The position numbers and the translations under genes are program-made. The notes under the pieces are model-generated. The model saw nothing but the letters and a program-made list of their open reading frames with translations. It made no database searches and was not told the origin of the DNA. 63,749 bases of DNA from positions 1-63,749 of the forward strand of contig NZ_AOJG01000039.1 in assembly GCF_000337375.1 (NCBI RefSeq), written 5' to 3'. Source of the DNA: Halorubrum lipolyticum DSM 21995. Lineage in GTDB: Archaea > Halobacteriota > Halobacteria > Halobacteriales > Haloferacaceae. Positions 22,697 through 63,608 of this stretch are shown piece by piece; position 1 is the stretch's first letter, and each line of letters begins with the position of its first letter.

Positions 22697-22717
22697 ACTC
22701 GAAGAATATTCGGGGAA

Positions 22718-34297: not shown

Positions 34298-34741
34298 TCA
34301 CACAGTAAGATCGAGTGTCAGTTTGACGTACTCAGTCGCCGAACCGTACTCGTTCTCGATTACCTCACAGAGTTCCCGGTTTAGGGTGAGACCACCACGT
34401 GTGATATTTGCCGAGCCGAGGTAGACGAACGAGTCCGAGACGACAGCCTTCGCGTGAAGTCCGTCGATCTCCTGAACATGGACGTGCTCGGGGAGTCTCC
34501 GTTTGATGTAATCGTTGTGCGATTCCCCGGAGCGAAGCAAAAGATGGATTTCCTTCTCCGAGAGCGTTTCCAGCGCTTCAATAAGGGACACCTCTCGAGA
34601 CTCGAACCGGTCGTTGATCGGGAGACTGAGGGAGACGTCGCTCAGCCAGGGCGAGACCACGACGACAGGGTCGCAGTGCAGTAGCGTGAACCCGATGAAA
34701 TACGAGAGGCTCTCAGAAGGTAAGGAAAACGCTCTTGTCAT
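34298..34741 (-). CDS. dpdK: DpdK-like phospholipase-D-fold nuclease
   Basis: A 147-residue protein with a single HKD motif: HAKAVVSDSFVYLGSANITRGG fits H-x-K-x4-D-x6-G-S-x-N. One HKD motif implies action as a dimer, as in Nuc-type nucleases. An early strand VVVVSPWLSD is typical of the fold. I chose ATG 34,741 (MTRAFSLPSES) because the longer in-frame extension is the shadow of the helicase gene, which it then overlaps by 29 nt. A small PLD protein directly behind a giant helicase is the dpdJ-dpdK arrangement of Dpd systems; DISARM drmC is the closest alternative. Confidence 0.72.
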   Translation of the reverse strand: MTRAFSLPSESLSYFIGFTLLHCDPVVVVSPWLSDVSLSLPINDRFESREVSLIEALETLSEKEIHLLLRSGESHNDYIKRRLPEHVHVQEIDGLHAKAVVSDSFVYLGSANITRGGLTLNRELCEVIENEYGSATEYVKLTLDLTV

Positions 34742-43267: not shown

Positions 43268-44196
43268 CTGTTAGGCTGTTGTAACCAGGCATGGTATCGT
43301 TTATGAATTGATGATTCGTCGGGGTCAATCTCGGCCGCTCTGTCTGCGGCGTCCTTCACTACCGGCGTCCGTGCCGCGTAAGACGGGTCGAACGTCTGTC
43401 CATCGTCGCTCACCGCACGGTTGAGGCTTCGAGCGACATCGGACGCGGTTTCCCGGTCCCACTCAATGCGCCTGCGTAGCCACCGTTCGAGACCCGTCAC
43501 GTCGTCCTCGTCGAGTGGAACGGAGCCGTACTCGTCTGGTCGCGCAAATATCTGCCCGAATACTGCGTAGAGCGGCAGGAACGGTGCATCGGGAAGAACT
43601 TTGAACAGGTCTTCGGTATCCTCGAGTTCCTCCCCGGTGATGAACTCATAGAGGTTCGCGTTGTCGTGGATGAAGAGATTCTTTGTGTCCAGTAGCGGGA
43701 GGTCCCACCCGGCGTTCTTATACACCTGCTCGAATCCGGTGTACAGACGCTGATAGGAGCCAACGTTTTCGACGAACTGTTCCTGGTAGAGCGGACGCTG
43801 TCCACCACGTGGCGTGAACCGACGTGAGTCCGTGACCACGATGAGCGTCTCAGGACGGGCTGCGTAGCGGCTGATTAGATGATCGATTGAATACTCGGTT
43901 TCGCCCTCATAATACTCACTCGTCGTGACGACCAAATCGTTGCGAAACGCGTCCTCCTCGAGTTGGCCGAGGACTTTGTAGTCGTAGTCGAGGTAGTCGT
44001 ACTGATGCGTGTACGACGGGAACTCCCCACCGGTGTTGAGTGAGCGCCACGACGTAGGGTAGGTGAACGTCTGGAACCCGAGATAATTGATGGCCGGAAG
44101 CGATCGTAGCATCCACCAGTACGTCTGTCCGGTGTCGTCGTGGATGGCCGCGATATCGGCGTTGCTGAGCCGCTTGAACGTCGATGGCTCTGTCAT
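43264..44196 (-). CDS. Unknown operon protein
   Basis: A 310-residue acidic protein that I do not recognise. It is aromatic-rich in the N-terminal third (QTYWWMLRSLPAINYLGFQTFTYPTSW; HQYDYLDYDYKVLG) and has a central strand ETLIVVTDSRRFTPRGG. No nuclease or ATPase motif is clear. Overlaps of 4 nt (ATGA) on both sides tie it to the giant helicase upstream and the DpdG-like gene downstream, so it should be part of the same complex. It has no obvious counterpart among the Dpd proteins I know. Confidence 0.6.
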   Translation of the reverse strand: MTEPSTFKRLSNADIAAIHDDTGQTYWWMLRSLPAINYLGFQTFTYPTSWRSLNTGGEFPSYTHQYDYLDYDYKVLGQLEEDAFRNDLVVTTSEYYEGETEYSIDHLISRYAARPETLIVVTDSRRFTPRGGQRPLYQEQFVENVGSYQRLYTGFEQVYKNAGWDLPLLDTKNLFIHDNANLYEFITGEELEDTEDLFKVLPDAPFLPLYAVFGQIFARPDEYGSVPLDEDDVTGLERWLRRRIEWDRETASDVARSLNRAVSDDGQTFDPSYAARTPVVKDAADRAAEIDPDESSIHKRYHAWLQQPNR

Positions 44197-47100
44197 GTGT
44201 TGGAGGGAACGGTGATTAGGGCACTGAGAACCTGATTATCGAGCAAGTCGTTCTCGAGGTAGTAGGCGGGCGTGCGCGAAAGGAGTAAGCACTCGTCACA
44301 GTAGTCCTCGCATCGATCGCAGTCGGCGACCTCTTCGACCCGGGCCTGGATGTCATCGAGCGCGTTCCAGACCTGCCAAGCGATCCCGTTCCCACCCTGG
44401 CGGCTATCCACGATGTTAACGCTGATTGTCGATTCAGTCTTGTCTGTATCGACTCGGAAATCCGACCGTTCGCATTGTGCAACGACGGCAATCGCTTTCT
44501 CGAGGGCCTGCTTCAGGCTAACAAGCGCCTGTGGCCATATCTCCTCATCGTCACCGACATCGAGTCGATTGGCAACGTCATTCTGGTCGAACTCGAGAGT
44601 CAGACCCTGCGTATGATACTGTTGGCCGACGGGTGCGTACTCTTCGGTCTCGCTTTCCTCGAGGCGGTCCTCCCACGATTTCCCGCTTTCAGGCGCCGGC
44701 GAAGACGGATCGCGCTCGATGAGGGCTTGCGACCGAAGGACCGACTTATCGGGGCTCGACGAGTGGCGGCGCTCGAACGCGTACACGAAGTCCGTGACAT
44801 CGAGTTCCCCGTAACTTGCCTCACAGTCCAGTCCGAACACAGTCATCGAGGCGGTCTTTTGCGGGGGAACGTCGCTATCGGAGACGGCAGTCGTCATCAA
44901 TCCACGAGTGTTGTATCGCTTCTGTCCGCCTCGTGCTGGTTTACACTCGACCGAACTCACCCCATGAACGTTCGTTTCTTCGAGGAGGGTATCACAGTAC
45001 GGACACTGCTCCGTGTCGAGTTCGTAGCTTTCGAACGGACGCTCACAGTCCTCGTTCGTACACACCATAACCGTCGTGAGCGGTGTCGAACTTCCGCGGA
45101 CGTCATCCACGATGTAGTCCGTACCGTGGAGGGTGACGAGCGATCCCAAGTCGTTCTCCGGGCCGGGGAACATGTCGTAGAGTCGACCGGACCCCTCGAA
45201 CTCGATCCCCTCGGAACGTCCCGAGAACTTCACGGGGAACTGCTGGCCGAAGCTGCGGTAGTTCGCTAGATAACCGAGGCGGCCCAGCCATTGATCGAGG
45301 CGGTTGTTCGATTCGGTGAACGCTTTGTTGGTCTCCGCCGACCCCGACATCGATATGATCTGTGAGAACGTTTTCTCGATACGGTGAGGCATCGAAAGAG
45401 GTCCACTGTCGACGAACACGGACTCGAACGCGTCGATGCCCTGTTGACCGAAGATCGACCGCAGATGTCGCTCGAGTGCTTCTCTGCGTTCCGCAAGCAG
45501 GAACTCCTGGAGAATATCGAGGCTCTCCTCGACACTGTGGACGAACGCGTCCAAGTTCTGGTTGGTCTCGTTCAGGAGGTACTTCCTCTCGAAAACGTTG
45601 GAGGGGTGCGGGTTGCGGGCCAGATACGCGAACGTCTCAGTCACGACATGGCCAGCGAGGAGCTCTTCGAACTCGTAAGGGTCAGGGACACGGACGGGTT
45701 CGAAGTCATCGAGGAACGTTTCGAGATTCCCGTAGTAGTGCCCGTCAACCGGGTGTTCGCCCCGAATGGCGGTGGCGACGAGTGAGGAACTCCCGCGGGT
45801 CCGGCCGGTTCGACCGCTTCGCTGGACGTAGTTCGTAAGCGTTGGTGGAATACCCACTTGGGCGACGGTATCGAGGCTGCCGATGTCGACCCCCAGTTCC
45901 ATCGTCGGCGTCGCGCTGACGATATTGACATCTGGGTCGTCTTTCCGGAATCCCTCCTCGATCGCTCCGCGAAGCGTGTGTGGAACGTTTCCCTTGTGAA
46001 TTCCGACACTGATGAACTCGGGGTCGGCTCCATTCCTTATCGGCGTCGTGATGTCGTGAGCCCAGTGGTCGACGGCATACGACCAGCCGGAGTCGACGTC
46101 CGCATATCCAGGGTCGGCGACGAGCGTTCCGTCCTCGTCACGAGTGAACCGTTGGTACGATTCAATCGGGGTCCCACAGTCGGGACATTCCGTAAGTGAG
46201 GCGTCTCCGACGGGGTACGAGCGGTAGCAGTCTGTACAGAATGACGCCCGCTCTAAGAGCGTAAGCGTCGAGTTGTCGCGGCGCACAACGCGGGTGAGAA
46301 TTCCTGTTTCTGACTCCTCGTCATGAATTCCGGCCTCGTTGAACTCGTCGCGGACTCGCTCAACGTATTCAACGGTTTCCTCTTTCCGGTCCTCACTGAC
46401 GTTCGCGTTCGCTATCGTCTGCCTGACCTCTTCCCACGATTGCTCGACGACGATTGAGTCGTCGAGCAACGCATCAAGGACCTCAGGGAGGACGTTGTAG
46501 ACGGTTTCGGTATCGTAGCCAGAGCGCGACGAAATTCGTTCGGCAATCTTGGGGAGCGAGAGCCCCTCGATGTCGATGGTGTTCTTCGAGAATCCCACCC
46601 GAGGATCCTTCACGAACAGCTTGTAGGCCTCGTGCGCAACGACCCGTTCGGTCGGGTCGTCGAACTGGATGACAGGCTCCGCGGTGACAAGTGCGCTATC
46701 GAGGAGGTTTTCCGCGTTGTGAAGCATCGCGTGAGCTTCGATATCGTCGAGAAGCGTACGGAGGAAGTTGTACGCCGTCCCATCCTCGTCGATCTCGTTC
46801 TGGATGAGCGGCTCCCAGTATGCTTCCCGGAGCTCGTCGGCGACTGCACGGAACGCCTCGTAGTTGCCGGCGCTGCCCCCGTTCTCGATCAGATGTTGTA
46901 CGTAGAGCGTTTCGGCCATCAAGCCGTACTCCGTCCCGATGATGCTGTCACCGACAGACTCGGCGGCGCTGTGGGAGTCCGAGAAGACGAGCGTCTTCTT
47001 CGACGGGCTTGTTCGGCAGACCTCCGTCAACATGTATGACAGAAGGCTCGTCGTCGGCACGCCGATATCTGTGAGCCGGGGCCACTGACCACAGCCCGGG

Positions 47101-48923
47101 CAGTCGTCGACGGGGGCAGCATGGTCGAACGGTCGGAAGCTCTCCTCGTCGTCGGCCGTATCGTGTTCGACAAACGGATAGTGACACCGCTTACAGAACT
47201 GGATCTCCGCGTTTCGTGTATCGCACACCGTGCAGTGTTTATCCCGCGTAACGTCGCTGCAAGACTCACAGAGGTAAGCCTGGGTCGGCGGCTTCAGGAA
47301 GACGTGGTACTTCTCCGTCACCATCCCCGCAAGGCGACCGAACGCCATCACCGCGTCCAGCACTCCGGCGGTCTCGTCGACACCTTCGTCGGCGAGCTCT
47401 GCGAGGAGTCCGTCATAGTGTCTGAACCCGACGTCGCCGGTCGTCCCTTCGTCGAACCAGCTAGCGAACGCCGCAGCCTCGGGGACCTGCGAGGTGACGA
47501 AATCGAACCACTCGCTATCGAGGCCGCCGGCCTCAAGCAACGTGTCGGCAAGATGGTTCTGTCCCGATTCAGTGGATGCAACCTCCGACACCGAGTCGAA
47601 CGTGTTGTCCGCAAGGAGAGCATCGACTTCGTCAGTGAGAGGGTTCCGAACCCAATCGAGGCTTGATGGGAGGGTTACGACATCCGCAGCACTGACAGAC
47701 ACGAGACCGACTTCGCTGACCGTTTCGTAGGCATCCTTGAGGCCGGCTTCGGCGAGGTCATCGGGGGTTGATTCGCCGAGGTCGGCAAGGGCGAGTACAG
47801 CGGCGATCTCACCGAGGTCACACGGCGCAAACCGATCGAACGAGGGCGATGATTGTATCGGGAACTTCCGTGGCGTGAAATCGATTGAGTTGATTTCGGC
47901 TTCTGGCGTTCCAGTGAGTTTGTGTGCGAGTTCCCTGGGGTTGTCCACGGTGGCAGAGACCATCGTGATCTGGGGATCTCTCTCGGCGTAGAACGATTTG
48001 AGCCGCTCCGAGAGGAGCCGAACTGAGGCTCCGGAGATGCCGCTCCAAACGTGGGCTTCGTCGAAAACGACGTGCTCGACGGGGTGTTGGCCCGGGTCTT
48101 CTCCGAGTATCTGGCGTGTTTCGGAGTTGTTGCTCACGAACATATGGTCGAGCGCCTCGGGGTTCGTGAGAAGGATATCTGCGCCGTTTCTGATAGCGTC
48201 CCGTGTCACCCGGATCCACGAATATTTGTTATCTTCCGTTCCCACCGTCATGTCGCCGAGCATCCGGAGCTTCTCGCCCTCCTCTCGCGGACATTCGAGT
48301 CCTCGAACGTACGAACCCTCCTCGATTTCGTGTTCACGGGTCCCTATCCGAGTCGGTGTGTCGGAATCCCAAATCCCGATCGTAATCCTGTCTTCGGGGT
48401 CACGGTGGCGGTTAATCCGATCGAGGTACGAAATAAACCGATTGAGCTGGTCAACACCGAGAGTCTTCATCGGGTAGACTATTAGCGACTTCAACCCCGG
48501 TTCGTCTGTGGAGATACAGTGATCAAGGATCGGGAAAAAGAACGACTCCGTCTTCCCCGTCGCAGTTGGCACCGCTAAGACGTTGTCGTTCGAATCAGCC
48601 GAAATCGATTCAATCGTCTCAGCCTGATGTTCGTAAAGCGACCCGCCCGGGTCGCCATCAAATAGGTCACCGATGATCGCGTCGATGAGTTCGTCACTGT
48701 AGTCGAGATCGCCGAGGAACTCTGCCGCTGATCGCTCATGGAATTTCGGAGCATCGACGAACTCGACGTATGGACCCTTTTGTTCGACGATTTCGTTCCG
48801 GATGAACGATGTCGCTTCCTCATCGCCGACTACTTCATCGAGTCGAGTCATTTGGCGGTTCCACCAAGTGATCTCTGCCGCACGGTCAATCGCGGAGTCG
48901 AGTGTTCGCTGTGGTGAATGCAT
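44193..48923 (-). CDS. Giant SF2 helicase with zinc sites and DUF1998 C-terminus (MrfA/Dpd-type)
   Basis: A 1,576-residue helicase. Motif I is VPTATGKTESF (about residue 117), Ia YPMKTLGVDQL, II FDEAHVW (about 288), III VSATVDN, V SATPTMELGVDIGSLD (about 1,000), and VI QRSGRTGRTRG. Zinc-type clusters occur at CESCSDV...CTVCD...CKRCH and CTDCYR...CPDCG. The C-terminus has RQGGNGIAWQVWNAL and CDRC...CDECL, the DUF1998 signature seen in MrfA-like repair helicases and DrmB. It probably fills the DpdE or DpdF helicase role. It is coupled by ATGA to the next gene. Confidence 0.8.
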   Translation of the reverse strand: MHSPQRTLDSAIDRAAEITWWNRQMTRLDEVVGDEEATSFIRNEIVEQKGPYVEFVDAPKFHERSAAEFLGDLDYSDELIDAIIGDLFDGDPGGSLYEHQAETIESISADSNDNVLAVPTATGKTESFFFPILDHCISTDEPGLKSLIVYPMKTLGVDQLNRFISYLDRINRHRDPEDRITIGIWDSDTPTRIGTREHEIEEGSYVRGLECPREEGEKLRMLGDMTVGTEDNKYSWIRVTRDAIRNGADILLTNPEALDHMFVSNNSETRQILGEDPGQHPVEHVVFDEAHVWSGISGASVRLLSERLKSFYAERDPQITMVSATVDNPRELAHKLTGTPEAEINSIDFTPRKFPIQSSPSFDRFAPCDLGEIAAVLALADLGESTPDDLAEAGLKDAYETVSEVGLVSVSAADVVTLPSSLDWVRNPLTDEVDALLADNTFDSVSEVASTESGQNHLADTLLEAGGLDSEWFDFVTSQVPEAAAFASWFDEGTTGDVGFRHYDGLLAELADEGVDETAGVLDAVMAFGRLAGMVTEKYHVFLKPPTQAYLCESCSDVTRDKHCTVCDTRNAEIQFCKRCHYPFVEHDTADDEESFRPFDHAAPVDDCPGCGQWPRLTDIGVPTTSLLSYMLTEVCRTSPSKKTLVFSDSHSAAESVGDSIIGTEYGLMAETLYVQHLIENGGSAGNYEAFRAVADELREAYWEPLIQNEIDEDGTAYNFLRTLLDDIEAHAMLHNAENLLDSALVTAEPVIQFDDPTERVVAHEAYKLFVKDPRVGFSKNTIDIEGLSLPKIAERISSRSGYDTETVYNVLPEVLDALLDDSIVVEQSWEEVRQTIANANVSEDRKEETVEYVERVRDEFNEAGIHDEESETGILTRVVRRDNSTLTLLERASFCTDCYRSYPVGDASLTECPDCGTPIESYQRFTRDEDGTLVADPGYADVDSGWSYAVDHWAHDITTPIRNGADPEFISVGIHKGNVPHTLRGAIEEGFRKDDPDVNIVSATPTMELGVDIGSLDTVAQVGIPPTLTNYVQRSGRTGRTRGSSSLVATAIRGEHPVDGHYYGNLETFLDDFEPVRVPDPYEFEELLAGHVVTETFAYLARNPHPSNVFERKYLLNETNQNLDAFVHSVEESLDILQEFLLAERREALERHLRSIFGQQGIDAFESVFVDSGPLSMPHRIEKTFSQIISMSGSAETNKAFTESNNRLDQWLGRLGYLANYRSFGQQFPVKFSGRSEGIEFEGSGRLYDMFPGPENDLGSLVTLHGTDYIVDDVRGSSTPLTTVMVCTNEDCERPFESYELDTEQCPYCDTLLEETNVHGVSSVECKPARGGQKRYNTRGLMTTAVSDSDVPPQKTASMTVFGLDCEASYGELDVTDFVYAFERRHSSSPDKSVLRSQALIERDPSSPAPESGKSWEDRLEESETEEYAPVGQQYHTQGLTLEFDQNDVANRLDVGDDEEIWPQALVSLKQALEKAIAVVAQCERSDFRVDTDKTESTISVNIVDSRQGGNGIAWQVWNALDDIQARVEEVADCDRCEDYCDECLLLSRTPAYYLENDLLDNQVLSALITVPSNT

Positions 48924-48983: not shown

Positions 48984-51900
48984 TTATCCGCCGACATCAA
49001 GTTTGATTCGCATCGCCACCTGTTTGCTGACTCCGTCAACCTCGGCGAGATCGTCTACTGATGCCTTCTTCAGTTTGCTTCGCGTATCGAACCCTGATTG
49101 ACGAAGCGATTGTTCAATTCTGTCTGTGACACCATTTACGTCTCTTAGCTCTCCTGAGCCGGTGTCCGTGTCTGTAGAGACGTTCTCTCCGTTGGAAGTC
49201 TCTGAGTTGTCGTCCTTAGCGGGGTCGGACGGTGGCTGGAAGGATTTCGTTTTATCAAAGGCTTGCTCGGTGGCTGCCGTGTACGTGTCAAAGTAGTTGG
49301 CGATGGTACTAGCAGTCACATGACCATGTTCGTTCATTTCAGCAGTAGAGGGTTTGTGACCGAGTTCATTGGCCACTCGGTGTAGGTCTTCAATAAGTCG
49401 GGCTTCGTTGTCGATTCCGGCCGCATCAAGGCAATTCTGCCAGGATCCGAACACACGAGTGATATCGTTAACTGAGTACTGTGTGGTGTCGCTTACGTCC
49501 GTTGCCTTGAGCGGTCGTTCAAATGTTCCGGCAACGTGTTGAACTGCGTCAAGGAGGTCACGGCGGCTTGGAGTACCGCTGCTTCCTGTGGTGGTTTCCC
49601 CACTACTCGATGTTTCGTCTTCGCTTGGCGATGACGATGAAACGGAGTCAGACGTATTGTTCCGTGAGCTGGTATCGATTCGTTTGGCTTGGAAATCTTT
49701 CGTGCTACTGAGCTCCTGACCAGTCCCCGCGTCTGTCTCCCATCTTTTGTGTCGAGCTTGCTCAATTGTGTATGTGGCCCCGATGGTCCACTCCAGCGAG
49801 AGGTTGTGTGTTGTCCAGATGTCAAGCGGCAGTTCGCTACCGTCTTGGAGTTCTACTTGGAGGCAGGCGTCGCGTTTGCTACCGGGATTCGAGTCAATTT
49901 CGAGGACGGTGATTGTTACTTTGTCGACGCGGCCGTCGGGCAGCGAAACCGTCGAGGATGCGGAGGATGTCGTTTTATCAGACACCGGCTGGTCTGTCTC
50001 GCGGTGCCCGGTAGTCCCTGTGACCGGACCGGTATGGTCATCCGGTGGTTGTGATCGCTTTGGGTTTCTCGTGTTTACTTTGTCTACTGTTTCAGTGTCA
50101 ACAAGTTCTGCTTCGATGAGTGCATCCTCTATACTTCCAAAGGCATCTTCGTATTCATCTGGGTGGTGACTGCCGACGGAATACAGAAGTTTTCGATCGA
50201 TTTTGTCCCAGTCGCTCGCAAGGTTTTGGAGCTCGGTGATGAGCTCCTCTTGTTCCTCTGTTAGTGATGATTGATTTATTTTGAACGTTTCCACTGTGTC
50301 TTCGTCGGCCACACCTGCTTTGACGAGTGCGGCGTCTAAACTCCCGAAAGCGTCTTTGTACTCGTCCGGATGGTGATCACCAACCGAGTAAAGGAGCTTT
50401 CGGTCGATCTCGTCCCAGTCGCTGGCTAACTCCCGTAGTTCGCTGATAAGGTCATCGGGCGTTGAGGTCTCGCTGCTTGTTCTCGTGGTGGTCGTGTCGG
50501 GATTCGAGGTACTGGACGATGTACTAGTTGTGTCCGCTGTCTCGTCTACATCTTGTGTGGCAGTGGTAGGGTTGCTCTCTGTGGGTTCGGGGCCAGTGTT
50601 AGTCGACGGTGTTGGAGACTGTCCCGAGTCATGGACACCGGCGGCAGCGATCGCGGCGTCGAAACTTCCGAAATGTTCGCCGAGTGTGGCTGGTGTGAAG
50701 TGGCTGTGCGTGGCGATATCTCCCATCGTTGGGACGCCGTCGACTTGGTCAGCAACGCGTTGTACGTCACTGATTACACGTTGGTCTGGGTCGATGTCGG
50801 CGGCGTGTAGCGCATCGGTCCACGATTCGAACGCGTCCGTGTAGCGTGCGGACGCGTATCTGCTGTGTGTGTCCATCTCACTGAGGGTTGGATATCCGGC
50901 AAGGACACCGTCAACACGCTGAATTTCGGTACGGAGTTCGTCTCTGCTCGGAGTTCTCGGCTCGTCGGACGACTCAGCGGGCTCTGTGGTGGTGTCGGAT
51001 GCCGTTTTTTCGGCCGTGTGCGCGCTCAGAGCAGTGTGGCTTGCATTCGGTAGCGTGATCGTGACCGTGTCCTCTTCGCCTGGAATATCGTGTGTTTGGT
51101 TCTGGTATCCGGCCCGGGAAACGAACAGGCATGGGTCGCTTCCGGAGGTGGGGGGCGTGATGGTAACGGTGCCGTCCGCGTCGGTAATCTGCTCGGCTGA
51201 GTCCGTGGTGGTTTCGGCGATGACTGCGGCGTTCTTAATCGCCTCACCGTCGGTGTCAGTTACAGTGACGGTGAGACGTGTCGGAGCAGAGTCGGCTGTG
51301 GCTTCGGAGGGCTCCGGAGTAACGGTATGACTGACAGAGTCTTGGACGGGCATTATGCCAGGAGTGAGCGATTCGGGCTGCCAGTACGTTGTAAGTACAG
51401 GTTGCTCCCGAGCTTCGTCCAGTGTCGATTCAATCTCGTCGATCAGTTCATCTAACAAAGCGCGGGCGACGTCGTCGTCAACCATGTCGCTTGTATCGCG
51501 GTTGTCGGCGATGGTGGCGCGTGCTCCGGCAGTCTCCAGTTCCCGGAGTATTTGACTGGTGGTGTCGCTGACGGCGACGAATCCGGGGTGTTCGCGGAAT
51601 CGGGAACCGAGTGCGCGGAATTCGCTGGCACGGCGGAGGAGTCGTCTGCCGTCCTCGCCGGGGATTCGCGCGTCGGTCTCGCCCGGGATGGTGACGACGT
51701 GGTAGAAGTGCGCGTGCTTGTTACCGGTCGGGTTCCGGAGTATCCGGCCGATGCGTTGAATGAGTGACGCGTTCACCCCGCCTTTAGCGAGGTTCACGGC
51801 GATCCCGGCGTCGGGCAGGTCAACGCCGACGCCGAGCACGTCTCCTGGTCCGACGAGCACGCCGGCATCTGCTTGTTTGAACTCCGTGATCGTGTCGTAC

Positions 51901-53645
51901 GGCGCGGCTTCGTCTTTCGCCGGCGTGTACACGGTGTTCGCGTCGAAGTAATCGACAAGATATTCGGAGACTGCGTCGGCTTGTGCGTAACTCTGAACCA
52001 GCACGACGGCCTTCCGGTCCGGGACGTGTTCGGTGAGGAGTTGCCCGATTATGTTGTGCGGCGGGTTCAGTTGCCAGCGTTTCGGTCGGCGGGAGAACGC
52101 GGCGGTGGCGAACGTGTCGAACGCTTCCGACTGATCCCGCGCGTCTTTCCCGTCTTTGCTCTGTGCGAACGACCGGAGGTCCCGGAGCGTTTCGAACGTG
52201 TCCGGGACGGTGGCTGGGACGTCACCGGAGAGTTCCTGCGGCGTGAATTTGTGCGTGTTGGTGTCGTATGTCGGTGTGAGCGTGGTGGTCGAGTCTGCGA
52301 CACCGGCAAGCGTGTCGTCGGAGTTACTCGCGGCGTAACACACGTCCCACCGAAAATCCGCGATGACGTTCTGCTCGCGGGCTTCGGTGATACCGAACTC
52401 GATACATTGAGCCAGGTTCGCTTCGAGCGCGTCTTTGACGCCGGAGTCGCCGAGCCACTCGTCATCGATCGACCCGGACATCGCCAAGACGCTGTCGGCG
52501 TTCGTCGTGAGGTCATCGAATAAGTCACGCCACCCGCGACTGCCACGCCGCCCGCTGCTGTATCGGTGGGCTTCGTCTAAAATGACGAGGTCGTAGTGCA
52601 GCCCGGGGTCGGCTGCGAGGAGTTCCTGTGCGGTGCGGAATTCGATGTCGCCCCACGCCAGTTCGATGTGCCGGTCACCGTCACTGCCTGTTTCGGTACG
52701 GCTCCGTGGGATGTTCAGATGCTCGTCGAACTCGCTTTGCCACTGTTCAAGGAGTAAATCCTGTCCGGCGACGATAAGCACGGTTGCACGGCCCGTCGGT
52801 GATCGTGTTGCTGCCGGGATGCCAGCCGTGTCTGCAGGGTGTAAATCGCCGAACAGGTGCGCAATGGCGGCGAGGCCGAGCACGGTTTTCCCGGTGGCGG
52901 TCGCCATGTTCACGTACCCGGTCGTCCCGTTGGCGACCCAGTTCGCGATCGCGCGTTGCTGATGGTCCCACAGTGGCGTGACCATTTGCGGTCTATCGAG
53001 GTGTGTTAATAGGCTATCCCCGCCGATACTGTTTCCAGAGTCCGCGGTGATTGAGTCGATGAGAATATCTGCGTAGTTCGTTACGGCCGGGTCGGAGAAC
53101 AGTTGATACAGCAGGTCAGCGACGGCTTCCGGTTGTTGCAGTGGCTGCCGAGACAACTCTTCGTCGCCGTGTTGCGTGATGAGTTTCTCGATGAGCGCTT
53201 CGGTTGCGCGGTTGAGATCTCCAATTTCGCTGTCGTCTAACCCGAGTTTCGTGAGTTCAACGCGGAGTTCATTGAGTCGGAAGACCAAGTCGCCGATGTC
53301 GCTTGCGTCGTATTCAGTGATGAGTTGTGGCAGGTCTGACTGTGACCCAGCAAGGGCTTGCAACCCGTCAACATAGTGTGATCCGCACGCCGTACCAAAA
53401 TCCATACGGCCGATCGTCGCTCCGTGATCGAAGGAAGCGTCAGTCGTTCCGAGCGCGACGCCGTACGTAACATCTATCGCGGCGCGGTCAATCTGTGATG
53501 GCCAATCGCCCTGTGTCAACGAGTTTTTGGAGAGCCGCGCGTCATAGAACTGCTCGTCAAGATCCGTGTACGAAGTACGATCATCGACTTGATTTTTGAA
53601 CGGATCCATTATTGAGGTGATAACTGCTTGCCATCCTGTCATCAA
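48984..53645 (-). CDS. SF2 helicase with PEGA-like, homing-endonuclease-repeat, OB-like and HhH modules
   Basis: A 1,553-residue mosaic protein. The N-terminal half is a type-III/SNF2-like helicase: motif I ATATGKTV (about residue 248), II ILDEAHRY (about 357), VI QRIGRILRNPTG. Then come a carboxypeptidase-regulatory-like beta domain (about 51,040-51,310), several SxxxALxAAGI repeats like the homing-endonuclease-associated repeat, two nearly identical repeats (about 50,130-50,250 and 50,335-50,457), an OB-like domain (about 49,677-49,937), and C-terminal helix-hairpin-helix. Thr/Ser/Asp linkers separate modules. Start may be 53,645 or 53,609. It precedes the giant DUF1998 helicase by 60 nt. 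Confidence 0.75.
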   Translation of the reverse strand: MMTGWQAVITSIMDPFKNQVDDRTSYTDLDEQFYDARLSKNSLTQGDWPSQIDRAAIDVTYGVALGTTDASFDHGATIGRMDFGTACGSHYVDGLQALAGSQSDLPQLITEYDASDIGDLVFRLNELRVELTKLGLDDSEIGDLNRATEALIEKLITQHGDEELSRQPLQQPEAVADLLYQLFSDPAVTNYADILIDSITADSGNSIGGDSLLTHLDRPQMVTPLWDHQQRAIANWVANGTTGYVNMATATGKTVLGLAAIAHLFGDLHPADTAGIPAATRSPTGRATVLIVAGQDLLLEQWQSEFDEHLNIPRSRTETGSDGDRHIELAWGDIEFRTAQELLAADPGLHYDLVILDEAHRYSSGRRGSRGWRDLFDDLTTNADSVLAMSGSIDDEWLGDSGVKDALEANLAQCIEFGITEAREQNVIADFRWDVCYAASNSDDTLAGVADSTTTLTPTYDTNTHKFTPQELSGDVPATVPDTFETLRDLRSFAQSKDGKDARDQSEAFDTFATAAFSRRPKRWQLNPPHNIIGQLLTEHVPDRKAVVLVQSYAQADAVSEYLVDYFDANTVYTPAKDEAAPYDTITEFKQADAGVLVGPGDVLGVGVDLPDAGIAVNLAKGGVNASLIQRIGRILRNPTGNKHAHFYHVVTIPGETDARIPGEDGRRLLRRASEFRALGSRFREHPGFVAVSDTTSQILRELETAGARATIADNRDTSDMVDDDVARALLDELIDEIESTLDEAREQPVLTTYWQPESLTPGIMPVQDSVSHTVTPEPSEATADSAPTRLTVTVTDTDGEAIKNAAVIAETTTDSAEQITDADGTVTITPPTSGSDPCLFVSRAGYQNQTHDIPGEEDTVTITLPNASHTALSAHTAEKTASDTTTEPAESSDEPRTPSRDELRTEIQRVDGVLAGYPTLSEMDTHSRYASARYTDAFESWTDALHAADIDPDQRVISDVQRVADQVDGVPTMGDIATHSHFTPATLGEHFGSFDAAIAAAGVHDSGQSPTPSTNTGPEPTESNPTTATQDVDETADTTSTSSSTSNPDTTTTRTSSETSTPDDLISELRELASDWDEIDRKLLYSVGDHHPDEYKDAFGSLDAALVKAGVADEDTVETFKINQSSLTEEQEELITELQNLASDWDKIDRKLLYSVGSHHPDEYEDAFGSIEDALIEAELVDTETVDKVNTRNPKRSQPPDDHTGPVTGTTGHRETDQPVSDKTTSSASSTVSLPDGRVDKVTITVLEIDSNPGSKRDACLQVELQDGSELPLDIWTTHNLSLEWTIGATYTIEQARHKRWETDAGTGQELSSTKDFQAKRIDTSSRNNTSDSVSSSSPSEDETSSSGETTTGSSGTPSRRDLLDAVQHVAGTFERPLKATDVSDTTQYSVNDITRVFGSWQNCLDAAGIDNEARLIEDLHRVANELGHKPSTAEMNEHGHVTASTIANYFDTYTAATEQAFDKTKSFQPPSDPAKDDNSETSNGENVSTDTDTGSGELRDVNGVTDRIEQSLRQSGFDTRSKLKKASVDDLAEVDGVSKQVAMRIKLDVGG

Positions 53646-56846: not shown

Positions 56847-56979
56847 TTATTGACTAATATGACGACGAAGGGCGAAATACACTCTCGGAGGAGGCAGTAT
56901 AATAGAGCGTGCTTCTCGAATTAGCCGCCGGACCGCTACGTGGGAAGATTTTAGGTCCCCCGCGTTGGATAAGCTCTCA

Positions 56980-57438
56980 ATGCCTTCGCTGCTAGTACAG
57001 TCCTGCTCGGCCACAAAGAATCAGGTGACAGGGCCGACACGGGCACTAGACGTCTACGACGGATACTTTTTCAGAATAATCAAAAAGGCGAAACGAGAGG
57101 ATGCCTTCAATTCCGACATCGACATTTGTATTCTCTCTGCAGAATACGGACTTATCGACGCTGAAGACACGATTACTACGTATGACCGGCGAATGACCCC
57201 TTCTCGTGCTGAGGAGCTCCGTGAGGAGGTGACCGGTGCCATTAGTAAACGTATCGAAAAATCGAGATATGACGAGATAGTCCTAAACTTGGGGAAGGAG
57301 TACCTAGAAGCGGTTGGCGACTTATCTGACCGATACGATGTCGACATATCGACAGTCCAAGGTGGAGGGATCGGGGAGAAGGGAAAACAGCTGAAGCGTT
57401 TCGTCCGGTCGGATACTGTTCCCTCGGTGATTCTCTGA
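56980..57438 (+). CDS. DUF6884-like protein coupled to a DpdA-like transglycosylase
   Basis: A 152-residue protein. It begins MPSLLVQSCSATKNQ, a strand followed by a C-S-x2-K motif, then ALDVYDGYFFRIIKKAK and ICILSAEYGLIDAEDTITTYD, all typical of the DUF6884 family. The C-S-x-T-K motif recalls the PCSxTKPY motif in the fused protein at 60,304-62,325. I chose ATG 56,980 because a TATA-like ATTTTA lies about 28 nt upstream; an in-frame TTG exists at 56,965. Its stop overlaps the next start (TGATG), so it is coupled with the transglycosylase and may modify its base. Confidence 0.75.
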   Translation: MPSLLVQSCSATKNQVTGPTRALDVYDGYFFRIIKKAKREDAFNSDIDICILSAEYGLIDAEDTITTYDRRMTPSRAEELREEVTGAISKRIEKSRYDEIVLNLGKEYLEAVGDLSDRYDVDISTVQGGGIGEKGKQLKRFVRSDTVPSVIL

Positions 57439-58679
57439 TGGCCTCTTCCGGCTCACAGCGCCTTGATGATGGAATATTTGAGATTGTTGACGAGGCTGGA
57501 GACGCTCGAAGTGGGGTGATCAGTATAAACGATACCGAACTGGAGACGCCCAATTTGCTACCGGTGGTGAACTTCTATGCCGGTGGCACTGATTCCAGCC
57601 TATACGGCGGTGGTATCCATCGGACAATCAAGGAGTTCATGAATGGAGACGAGGTCATAAACGGCGGGGATTACAGTCGATATTTCGATGGTGTGATGAC
57701 CTCCGTTGCGTCACTCACTGACTACGGCATCTCGAGAGAACGGTACGAAGACTACATCGCTGCACCGATCAGGGAACGCGATGTATTCGATTTTAACGGT
57801 ACCCTCTTTCTTGACTCAGGTGGATTCAAATTCCTCGGCGATGGTACCTTAGATGGCAGCAATTTTGAGGTGGACGTCGATCAGGAGGCGATCGTTGAGA
57901 TACAGCGGAAACTGGGGGGAGACGTCCTCGTAAATCTTGACCGACCAATTGAGCCGGACGACGACTACTCTACTCGTGTCGAAAAAGCTCGACTGACGGC
58001 CGAAAACGTCAACGAGTTCCTTAACCTAACTACCCAGGACGACACGCGATATCTGACACTCCATGGGTACAACTATTCGATGCTCGATACGTTTCTCACG
58101 GAAATTGAGAAAGCCATCGGCAGGGACCGTGTTCATCGTGAATTCGATGGCGTCGCCCTCGGGAGTCTCGTTCCACTCAAAGACAATAAGGGGAAACTGA
58201 TCACTGCTGTGAGTGATTGCCGTGAAGTGCTTAGTGACTGGGGGTTCGAGGAACTCCCCCTCCACGTACTCGGAATCTCTTCTAGTGCGATCCCTCTCTT
58301 GGCTGCAGTCGGTGCAGACACGTTTGATTCGTCATCGTACATTCACTCCGCCATCAACGGGAAATACGATACGTCATTATACAACTCAGAACCCGTAGAC
58401 GAAGTCGATTTTACGGAATGCGACTGTCAGGTCTGTAGTGATGACGTTTTAGTCAATCGGATGGAAGGGGACGTAGAGTACCAGAAAGACAAACTCGGTG
58501 CCGTTGCGATGCATAACCTGATTATTCAAAAAGAAGAAATAAAACGGATCCAATCCGCGATCCAAACACCGGGAGAGGAAGCGTTGAGATCATATATCGA
58601 ACAGTCATTGGGTCGAGAAAAGTCGATGCAACAGCACGCGCATCGCGTTGTGAACGAATCACTTGGAGGGTACTTCTGA
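57438..58679 (+). CDS. dpdA: DpdA-like DNA guanine transglycosylase (TGT family)
   Basis: A 413-residue tRNA-guanine-transglycosylase paralogue. Asp126 in FLDSGGFKF corresponds to the general acid/base, and Asp297 in GADTFDSSSY to the nucleophile. The zinc site is complete with canonical TGT spacing, C328-x-C330-x2-C333-x25-H359. There is no PUA or other tRNA-binding domain, unlike archaeal TgtA, which supports a DNA substrate. DpdA enzymes exchange guanine for preQ0 in DNA. It is coupled to the DUF6884-like gene upstream and abuts the GHKL ATPase gene downstream. Confidence 0.82.
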   Translation: MASSGSQRLDDGIFEIVDEAGDARSGVISINDTELETPNLLPVVNFYAGGTDSSLYGGGIHRTIKEFMNGDEVINGGDYSRYFDGVMTSVASLTDYGISRERYEDYIAAPIRERDVFDFNGTLFLDSGGFKFLGDGTLDGSNFEVDVDQEAIVEIQRKLGGDVLVNLDRPIEPDDDYSTRVEKARLTAENVNEFLNLTTQDDTRYLTLHGYNYSMLDTFLTEIEKAIGRDRVHREFDGVALGSLVPLKDNKGKLITAVSDCREVLSDWGFEELPLHVLGISSSAIPLLAAVGADTFDSSSYIHSAINGKYDTSLYNSEPVDEVDFTECDCQVCSDDVLVNRMEGDVEYQKDKLGAVAMHNLIIQKEEIKRIQSAIQTPGEEALRSYIEQSLGREKSMQQHAHRVVNESLGGYF

Positions 58680-60230
58680 ATGTCGACAACTAAAACGCCA
58701 CAAGTCAACGAAGTAAACGAATTTTTAGAGATCGCTAGCGACTTCGAGGATCCGCTTGAAGTGATCCGTGAGTCGCTGTCGAACAGTTATGATGCGGGTG
58801 CGACAGAAGTCGAAATCACCATCCGAGACCGACCGATCGGATCGGAGATTGTCATCGAAGACGACGGAGAGGGGATGGATCACGCCGATCTCGAGTCGTT
58901 CTTCGATCTGGGAAATTCCACGAAGCGCGGCCGTCAAAACGGCTCTATCGGGTACAAGGGCCACGGAACGAAGATTTTCTACAAAAGCGAGGAGGTACTC
59001 GTCAATACCACGAAGAACGGGACCAATTTACGCGCACAGATGGAGCAGCCGTGGGAAAAGCTCAATAACCGGACCATGCCCGAGTACGTACTGAACGAGG
59101 AAGCAGTCAAAGAAGGGAACTCCGGGACGCACATTCGCATTACCGGGTTCAAATCCGGCCACGGTTTCTCGCCAGCATCGCTCACTTACAACAAAATCGA
59201 GCACTACCTGAAATGGAAGACGCTCGCCGGGTCAACAGGTCACTTCTTCACCGACGACTTCCGAGAGATGGAGATAACGGTCACTCTCGGCGACGAAATC
59301 GATGATACACGGGATCAACTGGTGATGAACAACAAGCTTGAGTTCCCGACCGAGCAGCTTGAGCCTGGTGAGGGACAGTTCTCTGAATCTCGGATGTGTA
59401 AACACTACCCGCCACGGGAACTCACGGTCGAGACCGAAAATGGGATTGAAACCACTGTAGAGGTGGTTGGAATGGTGGGAGGCAAAGACGCTCGTAACGA
59501 ACTCCCCACTTATGGAAAGCACTCGGCACAGTTCGGTGTCTGGCTGGCAAAAGACCATATCAAAGTTGAGCGGGTCAACGACACCATCTCACACGACAAC
59601 GAGTTCCTCCATTTCTTCTTCATCGCAAACTGCCAAGACCTCGAATTGTCGGCAAACCGTGAAAAGATTCGGAATAAGTCTAGCCCGGTATATCAGGCAA
59701 TCGTAGAGGAGCTCAGCCACTACCTTTCGAAGATTGCATCAGATCCGTGGTTTAAAGACTACTTGTCTCACCGTCGTAAGGCGAAACTCACCCGTCGCGC
59801 AGAGTCCCAACAATCATCTATCGAAAAGCGTGAGCAACGGATTCAAGACCGAAACCGATTCACGCCATCCAACGACGCCGAAGTCGTGCTCGGGTTGGAA
59901 CGCTCGAACCGCTTTGGGGCTGAACCGGAGATCACAGTTGAAGATTACGACCCAAGTGCGGAGGTCAACGCGCTGGTTCGTCAGGATTCGAACCTCTATG
60001 CGAGTTCGATTCACCGTCGGCTTACGGATCACTTTGAGGCGGATAAACCGCTTGAGAGCGTCGATAAAATAGTTTGTTGGTCGTACGGCGACCGCGACGA
60101 GCTGAGCGAACTGGAGCGCTCAGGGTATCATAGTGGAGAGGTCACGATTGACCTTGAGAACGACCGACTGATCTATAACAATGGTCGTCGGCATAATATC
60201 CATATCGTCACGGTTCAAGACAGACTGTAG
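58680..60230 (+). CDS. GHKL (Hsp90/MORC-like) ATPase
   Basis: A 516-residue protein with an N-terminal GHKL ATP-binding domain: N-box ESLSNSYDAGA (about 29-40), G1 EDDGEGMD (about 58-65), and lid IGYKGHGTKI (about 86-95). A second domain like the S5 fold follows (LELSANREKIRN near 320). The C-terminal 120 residues are unrecognised. Similar proteins clamp DNA in MORC, MutL and GyrB families. It starts directly at the stop of the first DpdA-like gene and precedes the second by 73 nt, so it probably assists base exchange in DNA. Confidence 0.85.
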   Translation: MSTTKTPQVNEVNEFLEIASDFEDPLEVIRESLSNSYDAGATEVEITIRDRPIGSEIVIEDDGEGMDHADLESFFDLGNSTKRGRQNGSIGYKGHGTKIFYKSEEVLVNTTKNGTNLRAQMEQPWEKLNNRTMPEYVLNEEAVKEGNSGTHIRITGFKSGHGFSPASLTYNKIEHYLKWKTLAGSTGHFFTDDFREMEITVTLGDEIDDTRDQLVMNNKLEFPTEQLEPGEGQFSESRMCKHYPPRELTVETENGIETTVEVVGMVGGKDARNELPTYGKHSAQFGVWLAKDHIKVERVNDTISHDNEFLHFFFIANCQDLELSANREKIRNKSSPVYQAIVEELSHYLSKIASDPWFKDYLSHRRKAKLTRRAESQQSSIEKREQRIQDRNRFTPSNDAEVVLGLERSNRFGAEPEITVEDYDPSAEVNALVRQDSNLYASSIHRRLTDHFEADKPLESVDKIVCWSYGDRDELSELERSGYHSGEVTIDLENDRLIYNNGRRHNIHIVTVQDRL

Positions 60231-60303: not shown

Positions 60304-62325
60304 ATGGCATCGTTTGAGACCGACGCGACTGACGATGCTGGCAACGCACGTCGCGGTACAATCCACACACCGCACGGCGACGTTCAGACACCGGCATTCT
60401 TCCCTGTAGTCAATTTTATCGGTGGGCCTAACGAGAAATCCGGCGGAATTTGGAGTCGATTGCGGAATCATCTCTTCGGAGAACCCGAGTTTCAAGGCGC
60501 GATGTTCCAAGCGATGAGTTTCTTAGATTTCAATATCACACCTGAATCGCTTGAGAACTGGCGCTCGAAACCGATCCACGACCACTTCACTGATCACGAT
60601 CCGGTCAAGCCGTATCACTCACAGCCAGAGAGTTTTACTAAGCCGTTATTCGTAGACTCAGGCGGATTCAAGCTTCTAAACTCCGATACCTTCGGCGACC
60701 CGCCAACGGAGGGTGGCGATGATAATGACTGGGCAATTTACACGAATCCAGAGAGTATTCTAGATCTACAGCTCGATTATGGCGCTGACATCATCGCTAC
60801 CCTTGACTATCCGATTCCGCCGAACCTGAACGATGAGGAGACGACCCAACGAATGGAGGACAGTATCGACAGCGCCATTCGCTGTCTCGAACTCTTAGAA
60901 GACCAACCAGACCCGCCTGCGGTATATATCGCTATTCACGGTCACGACTACGAAACTATCAATTGGTACGTCGGGACGTTCCTTGACCGTGCGACGCATA
61001 TTGACAAGTCATTTGAAGGATTTGCAATCGGGTCACTCGTCCCGCTTAGAACGAACGTCGAAATGCTGGTTGACATCGTGCAAGGTGCGAAAGATGCGAT
61101 TCCTGACGACCGAGAAGATGATCTCGGGCTTCACCTATTCGGGATTAGTGGAAAATTCACAGCACTCCTAGCCCTTCTTGGCGCGGATTCATTTGACTCG
61201 TCAAGCTACATGCAAGCAGCACAGTTCAAGAAGTTCATTAATCGAGAGATCGGGGTTTCAGATGAGGAGCTCGTCCGGAATCCAAACGCTTCGACACACG
61301 ACTTGGGTGATTTTGGTGTTGACGTTGACCGGACAGCCGACGCACGATGGGCAGCGGACTGGTCGAAATTCACTGCGGATCAGATTCCCGACGATTGGGG
61401 GTGTCAATGTCCCGCATGCGATCATCTACGGCGGATAGGTTTCGATCAGCTACAGGGCACGATGTACGACAGCGAGTCGTATGATCGAGACGGCGAGTAT
61501 ATGAAGAGCGATTTTTACGCACTGATGAGCTATCATAACTTCTGTGTCTACCAAGACGAAATGAATCACGTGCGGGAGCTGATCAGCAACGGTGGCGGGG
61601 AGTTGCTTGAATACGTTGCCAAGATGGCTCGCAACGATGTCGGGAATATCAAGCGAGCGCTGAAACGGGCAACCGTACGAGATCGAGAGTTGGCACAGCA
61701 ACTCCGAGAACGTGGCTACAACCGGTTAGTCGCCGATCAGAGCGACGCGGAGCAGGAACGGCTTGATTTGGATATTCCGGTCGATGACCAAGAGATTTCA
61801 CTTGAGCACACACCGGAGGATTTCAACATTCTTCAGCGGAAGGACTACCGTGTCGGCGATGAGCGCGTACTGCTCGTTATCCCGTGTAGCCAAACCAAGC
61901 CGTATTCTAATTCTCGAACGCACCGCGTCGTGGCAGACGTAACCGCTGAGTGGAACGATCAGATCCACAAAGTGACTGTCTCTGGCATGTACGGCCCTGT
62001 ACCCGAACAGTACGAAAGCCTCTCGCAGATCAAATCATACGAGTACGTGCTGACAAACGCTGAGAAACAGCGCCAACAACTCGTCGTGAACCGTTTGGTC
62101 TCCTACCTCGAAGAATACGGCTCACAGTTCGATGCCATCGTTGGCTACGCCACCAGCAAAACCTACCGTACCGTAATAGAGCAAGCGTTCTCCGAGTACG
62201 GAGATGGCGTTGTCCTCCCAAAAGACCCGAAAATGCGCGCACTCACTGAACACTTCAGAACAACTAATCTCGAAGAGCTATCTGAGCACCTAGATGATGT
62301 GCTCTCATCCACACCATCCCAGTAG
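60304..62325 (+). CDS. dpdA: DpdA-like transglycosylase fused to an ArcS-type core domain
   Basis: A 673-residue fusion. The N-terminal 450 residues are a TGT fold with Asp118 in FVDSGGFKL, Asp298 in GADSFDSSSY, and zinc ligands C367, C369, C372 and H411; the last loop is longer than in the first DpdA-like protein. Residues about 520-673 match the archaeosine synthase core with the full motif P527-C528-x3-K532-P533-Y534-x2-S537-x2-H540. ArcS adds lysine to preQ0 in tRNA. Unlike ArcS, the catalytic aspartates of the TGT part are kept and no PUA domain follows. A DNA base-exchange enzyme that also elaborates preQ0 is the best inference. Confidence 0.85.
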   Translation: MASFETDATDDAGNARRGTIHTPHGDVQTPAFFPVVNFIGGPNEKSGGIWSRLRNHLFGEPEFQGAMFQAMSFLDFNITPESLENWRSKPIHDHFTDHDPVKPYHSQPESFTKPLFVDSGGFKLLNSDTFGDPPTEGGDDNDWAIYTNPESILDLQLDYGADIIATLDYPIPPNLNDEETTQRMEDSIDSAIRCLELLEDQPDPPAVYIAIHGHDYETINWYVGTFLDRATHIDKSFEGFAIGSLVPLRTNVEMLVDIVQGAKDAIPDDREDDLGLHLFGISGKFTALLALLGADSFDSSSYMQAAQFKKFINREIGVSDEELVRNPNASTHDLGDFGVDVDRTADARWAADWSKFTADQIPDDWGCQCPACDHLRRIGFDQLQGTMYDSESYDRDGEYMKSDFYALMSYHNFCVYQDEMNHVRELISNGGGELLEYVAKMARNDVGNIKRALKRATVRDRELAQQLRERGYNRLVADQSDAEQERLDLDIPVDDQEISLEHTPEDFNILQRKDYRVGDERVLLVIPCSQTKPYSNSRTHRVVADVTAEWNDQIHKVTVSGMYGPVPEQYESLSQIKSYEYVLTNAEKQRQQLVVNRLVSYLEEYGSQFDAIVGYATSKTYRTVIEQAFSEYGDGVVLPKDPKMRALTEHFRTTNLEELSEHLDDVLSSTPSQ

Positions 62326-62363: not shown

Positions 62364-63608
62364 TCAGATCGGTTGTTCCAATCGCCAGTCGCTCTCCTGT
62401 GGTTCAAGATTACTCGAATCAGATCCGGACTCCGCAAGGATGCCAGAATGGTACAGCATCTGTTTAAATTGATACGCGACCACCGAACGATATACCGGGG
62501 ATTCTAACAGTGAGGCTGTAATCAAGTCGCCATCGCCGGTCAGTACTGCAGACCGTGCCTCTTCTGTATCTCGAATGAAGAATTCGACAGCGAACGTAGG
62601 CGAAGTATCAAACAGATACTCCACTACGGTAGGCAGAGTCGGCGGCTGATCGTTGTTCTGAAGCTCTTGAATATGTTTTACGAGCATCTGTGTTGCGGGA
62701 AAAGCGAACACCACCCGTCGGGCAATTAACGCCCAGTCCGGTGCTAGCTGAGTGAGTCTCGTCTGCTCACCTTTCCATGATTTGAACTCTTCTAAGACAG
62801 ATCTCAATGATTGCTCGTGTTTTTGTAACCCGAATCGAAGCACTTCCTCACCCAAAGGAGATAGAACATCAGACCCGTCCGGTTGCTTCTCTATAAGCCC
62901 GAGGAATGCAGCCCCGTCTCTGGCACTCTTGAAATCTCTCACCACGTATTCTTCAAGAACAGTCTCAGTCGGTTCCGGATGGTAGACACAGAATGGGTAC
63001 CCTAGGTAGTTTTTCGGACGGTTGAGATGAAACGATTGGTCAGCAACGCGCTGTGGACCGGCCTGGAAGCGTATCGTCGATGCTTCTCGACCGGCCTGTG
63101 TGCCAACCACTCGCGGTTTCTCAAGTACATCTACTGATTGATCTTCTGTCACTCCGAGAACACCGATATTTAGCTCTCGACCAAGAGCTCGGGTTTCCGC
63201 CGAGATTGAACTGCGGGGAGCAGCTAGAAATCCGAGATTCGCTTCCTGTAGCCGGTCATGAGCTTGAACAATCCCCGTCTCTGTGTCAACGTGTCCAGTC
63301 GATCCATATCCCTTCGCTTCAACGACTACAAGCGGAGGTGAATCTATATCTCCGGAGTGGCCAAAAAAGGCATCATTTGTAATCGACCCAGCACCAACGA
63401 GGTCAGGATATCCTGATCCTACACGCACGTGGTTGAATGGCGCTAACGCTTCTGTTACTTCTCGTGAAACTGGGACGTCATCCAACCACTGGTCAGTTGA
63501 GAACTGGGTGTCGACGACCGTGTATCCTGAGTTCGGTCCTATCTCTGAAAATAACTGGTTTTTTGTCGCTGCTAGCACCTCTGGCTCGGTCATCAACAGT
63601 GCTCCCAT
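62364..63608 (-). CDS. PD-(D/E)XK-like nuclease-domain protein
   Basis: A 414-residue protein; an alternative start is 63,593 (MTEPEVL). Residues about 60-130 show a restriction-enzyme-like core: GSGYPDLVG (Pro68-Asp69) and LVVVEAKGYG (Glu97-x-Lys99), followed by helix AHDRLQEANLGFLAAP. The rest is helical with a winged-helix-like segment (FLGLIEKQPDGSDVLSPLGEEVLRFG). It is convergent with the fusion gene, 38 nt apart. It may be an additional effector nuclease of the island. Nothing recognisable follows in 63,609-63,749. Confidence 0.65.
   Translation of the reverse strand: MGALLMTEPEVLAATKNQLFSEIGPNSGYTVVDTQFSTDQWLDDVPVSREVTEALAPFNHVRVGSGYPDLVGAGSITNDAFFGHSGDIDSPPLVVVEAKGYGSTGHVDTETGIVQAHDRLQEANLGFLAAPRSSISAETRALGRELNIGVLGVTEDQSVDVLEKPRVVGTQAGREASTIRFQAGPQRVADQSFHLNRPKNYLGYPFCVYHPEPTETVLEEYVVRDFKSARDGAAFLGLIEKQPDGSDVLSPLGEEVLRFGLQKHEQSLRSVLEEFKSWKGEQTRLTQLAPDWALIARRVVFAFPATQMLVKHIQELQNNDQPPTLPTVVEYLFDTSPTFAVEFFIRDTEEARSAVLTGDGDLITASLLESPVYRSVVAYQFKQMLYHSGILAESGSDSSNLEPQESDWRLEQPI

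Follow-up and report, generated by a model that had tools for sequence, protein, structure and literature searches.

A TGT-ArcS-core fusion in Halorubrum lipolyticum, a probable two-headed 7-deazaguanine enzyme of a Dpd/BRIGADE-type island

The stretch of Halorubrum lipolyticum DSM 21995 DNA analysed here (63,749 nucleotides, hereafter the window) encodes one protein that joins a TGT domain to the core of an archaeosine synthase (ArcS). Does such a protein act on DNA or on RNA, what base would it leave there, and how is it related to the genes that surround it? The initial annotation called it DpdA-like and proposed that it inserts preQ0 into DNA and then adds lysine or a related amine.

Domain architecture and phylogeny of the fusion

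The open reading frame of the fusion (60304-62325, plus strand, 673 aa) is real and intact, and its coordinates and length match those of the initial annotation. The TGT domain spans about residues 1-445 and the DUF5591 core about residues 514-640; in Pfam, both exceed their curated cut-offs (PF01702, E 4e-29, residues 111-444; PF17884, E 2e-15, residues 514-639). The TGT head carries D118 and D298, which we take to be the general acid/base and the nucleophile, respectively, as in the TGT family, and the zinc ligands C367, C369, C372 and H411. The core shows the complete archaeosine-synthase motif at 527-540 (PC-SQT-KPY-SN-S-RT-H), just as first described, with C528, K532, P533, Y534, S537 and H540. 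No exchange is seen at D118, D298, H411, C528, K532, P533, Y534 or S537 in 40 haloarchaeal homologs of the fusion, and C367, C369, C372 and H540 are almost unchanged among them. The intact aspartates and zinc site noted initially are thus conserved in haloarchaeal homologs as well as in the bacterial ones discussed below. Neither PUA nor TGT_C2 was found in the fusion by Pfam, although the identical library detects both in ArcS of the same host, along with DUF5591 and only a partial TGT; the missing PUA domain had been recognized from the start.

Judged from its sequence, the fusion is built in the domain order of ArcS, except that its TGT head is live and the PUA part is absent. ArcS proteins of the NF040592 type (TGT-like, DUF5591, TGT_C2, PUA) share with it the succession of TGT and DUF5591 and the motif PC-x3-KPY-x2-S-x2-H. 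In contrast to the fusion, ArcS has a degenerate TGT head and possesses TGT_C2 and PUA; the fusion also occurs in bacteria, and its heads fall outside the ArcS clade in the best tree. By the NCBIfam DpdA model NF041059, the fusion is not DpdA, at 16.3 bits against a cut-off of 200. The equivalog models for ArcS (NF040592, 65 bits, cut-off 440) and TgtA (TIGR00432, 87 bits, cut-off 350) also score low. Structure prediction, which the initial annotation had proposed together with this HMM comparison, yielded an AlphaFold2 model (pLDDT 78.5, alignment of 33 sequences) that matches the archaeosine TGT 1j2b with a VIA Z of 35.1 over 348 residues, a match that pairs model residues 1-476 with chain residues 7-377 only, that is, with the catalytic part. 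By sequence, the ArcS core matches AF0587, a protein of solved structure (2q07, E 1.5e-4). The best structural matches of the fusion are tRNA enzymes, and no DpdA structure is among the matches listed.

In a tree of 65 TGT domains, the haloarchaeal and bacterial fusion heads form one clade (92/88) outside the group of TgtA, ArcS, bacterial Tgt and a family of 350-aa TGTs, with a separating branch of 97/97. Because of this separate clade, the fusion heads are neither ordinary TgtA nor bacterial Tgt; a position within ordinary ArcS or TgtA was the outcome that the initial annotation had named as contrary to its proposal. An ordinary ArcS or TgtA paralog is ruled out by the missing C2 and PUA parts, the low equivalog scores and the tree. 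When the ArcS head was constrained to group with the fusions, the topology was weakly rejected (AU p 0.045) in a tree with one long ArcS branch, and the fusion and ArcS may share a distant common origin.

The TGTs of about 350 aa, found in haloarchaea and on plasmids, form a clade of their own (L092:11992-15076, L093:11992-15061, L087-L091). Their genes are followed by one for a 'BREX system ATP-binding domain' protein, with QueD/E and often QueC and FolE nearby, and they may be the TGTs of the HerA/BREX-related systems of PMC12839542. Two of the same loci (L092:3951-6857, L093:7945-10854) encode a 968-aa protein that does exceed the NCBIfam DpdA cut-off (265 bits) and contains DUF6884 at 777-875, apparently a second, independent fusion of a TGT with a DpdC/YaaA-type domain.

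Operon neighbours and the surrounding island

The fusion is not alone. Beyond what was first described, its surroundings hold another intact TGT and an entire island of restriction-like character, about 42 kb long (about 20.7-62.3 kb of the window). Some 3 kb upstream of the fusion, the neighbouring plus-strand operon opens with a gene for a DUF6884 protein of the DpdC/YaaA/ArcS-core superfamily (56965-57438 as the longest frame, from a TTG; 56980-57438 from the conserved ATG). Pfam assigns it to PF21818 (E 9e-13), with weaker YaaA and DUF5591 matches, and PADLOC DpdC models match it at E 2e-7; its C14-S15-x2-K18 (numbered from the TTG at 56965) is invariant in 36 homologs. As the dpdC domain is given as DUF6884 in PMC11888242, and in view of the PADLOC matches, the island does have a DpdC-type protein, and the initial statement that DpdC is not seen was wrong. 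The next gene (57438-58679, plus strand) encodes the second TGT paralog, 413 aa long, without an ArcS core or PUA (PF01702, E 7e-23). Its D126, D297 and C328/C330/C333/H359 are invariant in 37 homologs, NF041059 gives it 25.6 bits against the cut-off of 200, and it belongs to a third clade of the 65-domain tree. The third gene (58680-60230, plus strand) encodes a GHKL/HATPase protein of 516 aa (PF13589, E 5e-17) that is found in 37 of 42 neighbourhoods. DpdB was not found by Pfam or PADLOC among the cassette proteins scanned, and the GHKL ATPase could possibly be a stand-in for the DpdB ATPase.

On the other side of the fusion, a minus-strand gene (62364-63608) encodes a 414-aa protein that is conserved in six loci without a family match; its N-terminus resembles a restriction-endonuclease-type protein (VVEAKG motif).

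At the opposite end of the island lie genes for preQ0 supply. On the minus strand these are the genes for the preQ0 synthase QueC (20675-21364; TIGR00364, 185 bits, cut-off 150), QueE (21459-22235; TIGR04349, E 1e-30, and TIGR03365, E 7e-26, neither of which reaches its cut-off) and QueD (22235-22813 as the longest ORF, its true start probably internal; TIGR03367, E 3e-20, below cut-off). A plus-strand gene for a Vut_1/YhhQ-type transporter follows (22877-23536; PF02592, E 4e-39), whose cargo, judging by its family, is presumably preQ0. The island QueC is the sole one above cut-off in the H. lipolyticum genome. We had considered whether such an island copy always comes in addition to another QueC, and abandoned this, since it is the only copy here and in most Halorubrum carriers. 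QueC is present in all 38 haloarchaeal genomes with the fusion versus 246 of the 353 others (p 4e-6, uncorrected for relatedness). Within Halorubrum, it occurs in 15/15 genomes that have the fusion or a separate 350-aa TGT versus 9/29 listed others (p 1e-5, likewise without correction for relatedness). In H. kocurii, one continuous stretch holds the fusion, both YprA helicases, the PLD nuclease, the transporter and QueD/E/C.

At least 20 Halorubrum genomes lack QueC; where the genus has QueC (20744-21349 in the window), the gene often borders an island of DNA-modification genes that has a Vut_1 transporter. Many Halorubrum may rely on imported preQ0 for their tRNA archaeosine.

The middle of the island, all on the minus strand, contains restriction-type genes. 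A DpdK-like PLD nuclease (34298-34741, conserved part from the internal ATG at 34741; PF13091, PLDc_2, E 1e-7; DpdK, E 2e-11) is followed by a DpdJ-like YprA-family helicase of 1358 aa (34713-38789; PADLOC DpdJ, E 2e-47). A second YprA-family helicase, Druantia/ARMADA-like and 1576 aa long (44193-48923; PADLOC DruE, E 3e-42), has an MZB zinc domain at 44286-44516. Between the two are four conserved genes: c5, for a coiled-coil-like protein (38871-39611, 246 aa, 13 neighbourhoods); c8, for a P-loop/STAND-like ATPase (39541-42426, 961 aa, 11 neighbourhoods; weak AAA/nSTAND matches in a homolog); c9, possibly for a winged-helix protein (42428-43267, 279 aa, 9 neighbourhoods; weak HTH match in a homolog only); and c7, for a 310-aa protein (43264-44196, 12 neighbourhoods). 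Variable island genes encode a 1553-aa ResIII-type helicase with HNH-associated repeats and HHH in Pfam (48984-53645), related ORFs of which lie near the cassette elsewhere, and a large AAA/helicase protein of 1476 aa (24418-28848; PF13087, PF13086). A TFIIB-family factor (29504-30442; PF00382, E 8e-29) is frequently encoded close to the cassette elsewhere.

The initial remark that no cellular system of this kind had been described is outdated. Under the name BRIGADE, Bell et al. (bioRxiv 2025, PMC12458937) described haloarchaeal systems that resemble Dpd and have a predicted 7-deazaguanine cluster, and the window fits BRIGADE Type I in every feature testable: a halophilic archaeal host; a pair of YprA helicases, one of the Dpd branch and the other ARMADA-like, as assigned by HMM rather than by placement in a YprA tree; a 7-deazaguanine cluster at 20.6-23.5 kb, in which QueC is above and QueE and QueD below cut-off, with Vut_1; and a nuclease of the PLD or PD-(D/E)xK type, here the DpdK-like PLD protein. 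The main text of PMC12458937, however, names no TGT, ArcS, TGT-ArcS fusion, DUF6884 or GHKL, and it reports BRIGADE from halophiles alone; the fusion, for its part, is found in bacteria too. With Dpd of Salmonella Montevideo and others (dpdA-K), the island shares a TGT-family inserter, a DUF6884/DpdC-type protein, a DpdJ-like helicase, a DpdK-like PLD protein, and linked preQ0 genes with a YhhQ-type transporter. It differs from Dpd in having a GHKL ATPase with no DpdB found near it, and two TGTs, both below the DpdA model cut-off and one of them fused to an ArcS core.

Recurrence in haloarchaea and bacteria

According to counts compiled by hand from 391 haloarchaeal genomes, the fusion is present in 38, of which 37 also have the second TGT, and the second TGT occurs without the fusion in five (Fisher p 3e-45, uncorrected for relatedness); the whole DUF6884-TGT-GHKL operon accompanies the fusion in 37 of the 38. 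With this spread and the bacterial homologs described below, the fusion recurs far more often than chance would allow. The nearest relatives of the fusion, 96-97% identical, are in Halorubrum, among them H. coriense DSM 10284, H. kocurii JCM 14978 and H. cibi DSM 19504. Across 42 neighbourhoods, DUF6884-TGT-GHKL is a stable gene order, which the fusion adjoins on either strand. The flanking modules differ: YprA plus PLD; c5-c8-c9-c7 plus YprA; AAA; or DUF262-type genes, with QueD/E/C, with or without FolE, also among the variable ones.

All five operons without the fusion are preceded by genes for a 310-aa DpdA-like protein and a second DUF6884 protein. The sole phage match of this 310-aa protein is the annotated DpdA of Halorubrum virus HRTV-29 (26% identity, E 2e-15), and conserved columns support the identification. 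In HRTV-29, a YaaA gene adjoins dpdA, and its DpdA has been discussed as a DNA enzyme (PMC8651126). As the five genomes are close relatives, the exchange of the fusion for DpdA plus DUF6884 probably represents one replacement event. HRTV-29 with DpdA plus YaaA, and phages of the Vibrio nt-1 type with DpdA plus ArcS, likewise set a DpdA-type insertion enzyme beside a YaaA/ArcS-superfamily protein; unlike the fusion, these are separate genes, viral, with a divergent DpdA. A viral origin of the fusion itself was considered and rejected: tblastn found no matches in 50,697 phage records, and none was confirmed in two scans of IMG/VR, so the fusion looks cellular.

Two further arrangements were seen on plasmids. 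In Haladaptatus, two copies of the fusion face each other (L076:14989-16953 and 17667-19688), and in Salinibaculum the 310-aa DpdA-like family also adjoins DNA adenine/cytosine methylase genes (L097:5908-11077).

Outside haloarchaea, a scan of genome contigs revealed full-length relatives, 28-35% identical over about 600-670 residues, in Poribacteria, Cyanobacteria, Chloroflexota, Deinococcales, Thermodesulfovibrio, Kuenenia and one Thermococcaceae MAG. All 14 bacterial homologs checked retain both aspartates, the zinc ligands, C528, K-P-Y and S537, and 11 retain H540, which is Phe in the other three. Four bacterial fusions adjoin genes for DpdJ-like helicases (PADLOC E 1e-56 to 1e-66). A PLD nuclease is encoded in two of the four loci, and QueD/E/C as well in one, that of Deinococcales. 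The cyanobacterial fusions are followed by genes for a GmrSD_N-type protein and a HEPN protein, and one bacterial fusion is preceded by a gene for a HerA protein. Most Poribacterial copies lie among ordinary genes, with no restriction partners in the stretches read. Ordinary Tgt is present in the bacterial carriers searched, and no RaSEA above cut-off was found in those tested, whereas haloarchaea have it. Archaeosine is not known from bacterial tRNA, and the bacterial fusions therefore speak against a role in tRNA.

Substrate, product and role

We best explain the fusion, with a probability of about 0.7, as a 7-deazaguanine enzyme with two heads, belonging to a DNA modification and restriction island of the Dpd/BRIGADE type. 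The TGT head would probably swap guanines in DNA for preQ0 derived from the linked queC/D/E genes, and the ArcS-type core (C528, K532, KPY-S-H motif) would then probably attack the 7-cyano group, with dG+ (deoxyarchaeosine), a dPreQ0-amine adduct or dADG as possible products. The other half of the modification module would consist of the DpdC-type DUF6884 protein, the second TGT and the GHKL ATPase. Restriction, the cleavage of unmarked DNA, is probably the part of the PLD nuclease and both YprA helicases. The order of the steps, the identity of the final base and the defence function are predictions. That the substrate is DNA is strongly suggested, because the host genome has TgtA, ArcS and RaSEA of its own, the fusion recurs in bacteria, in several of them beside DpdJ/DpdK-like genes, and a viral-type DpdA plus a second DUF6884 takes its place in all five operons without it. 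The missing PUA, the linked preQ0 and Dpd-type restriction genes and the position of the head outside the TgtA/ArcS clade also indicate that it probably acts on DNA. An insertion head and an ArcS core within one enzyme, probably working on DNA, as originally proposed, is therefore supported by gene linkage, occurrence in bacteria, the exchange for a DpdA pair and the tree.

The closest solved structures and HMMs, those of tRNA TGTs and ArcS, would suit an RNA enzyme that introduces a second archaeosine or a related modification into some tRNA or other RNA, perhaps conferring resistance to viral nucleases. We consider this improbable in a protein that lacks the PUA and TGT_C2 parts, whose host is already equipped for tRNA archaeosine with TgtA, ArcS and RaSEA, whose bacterial carriers have ordinary Tgt, and whose gene is found in DNA restriction islands with DpdJ/DpdK and gives way to a viral-type DpdA. 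The Poribacterial copies among ordinary genes, for their part, would agree with a non-defensive modification of cellular DNA, serving its stability or regulation, the fusion having reached restriction islands by hitch-hiking. Such a role is made quite unlikely by the restriction-type modules of different kinds (YprA plus PLD, GmrSD-type plus HEPN, HerA) to which the fusion is linked, time and again, in lineages that are not related.

As to the product, ArcS of T. kodakarensis adds lysine and RaSEA finishes G+ (PMC11298593), and the DNA of phage nt-1, which has ArcS, holds dPreQ0, dG+ and dADG (PMC6884629). For the fusion core, lysine transfer or amidine formation is predicted from the similarity of the motif. 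Lysine addition followed by RaSEA cannot be general, because the bacterial carriers tested lack RaSEA while the haloarchaeal hosts possess it; together with the mixed bases of nt-1 DNA, this leaves lysine addition, the outcome initially foreseen, as one option and not the sole one. Provided that the fusion acts on DNA, we would put an amine or amidine product (dG+ or an adduct) at roughly even odds, and dADG well below even. Rather than adding an amine, the core might, after insertion of preQ0 in DNA, hydrolyse the nitrile as DpdC does, giving dADG, or merely bind the base. This somewhat doubtful but substantial alternative draws on the DUF6884, YaaA, DpdC and DUF5591 models, which all match the neighbouring DUF6884 protein, such that one superfamily may do several reactions; on the replacement of the fusion by DpdA plus DUF6884; and on the RaSEA-less bacteria and the dADG of nt-1. 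Against it, the core keeps the full ArcS motif and not that of DUF6884, and a separate DUF6884 protein is already there for the DpdC part.

Several points are new here: which proteins make up the modification module and how they are conserved; a fusion that has kept its two active sites; the swap of that fusion for a DpdA of viral type together with DUF6884; and a bacterial branch with a compact DpdJ/DpdK set. On the two-headed reading in its fullest form, which we put forward tentatively, a lone enzyme common to haloarchaea and several bacterial phyla would place preQ0 in DNA and convert it there by archaeosine-synthase chemistry, and cells, beyond phages, would mark their own DNA as self with deoxyarchaeosine or a new dPreQ0-amine base. 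If so, archaeosine-type chemistry, in cells known from tRNA only, would also mark archaeal and bacterial DNA, and one protein would couple insertion and tailoring. The poorly described BRIGADE islands would gain a concrete modification enzyme, and the compact bacterial versions (fusion, DpdJ, PLD, QueD/E/C) would suit biochemistry. ArcS, DpdC, YaaA and DUF6884 would then be linked as one toolkit for the preQ0 nitrile.
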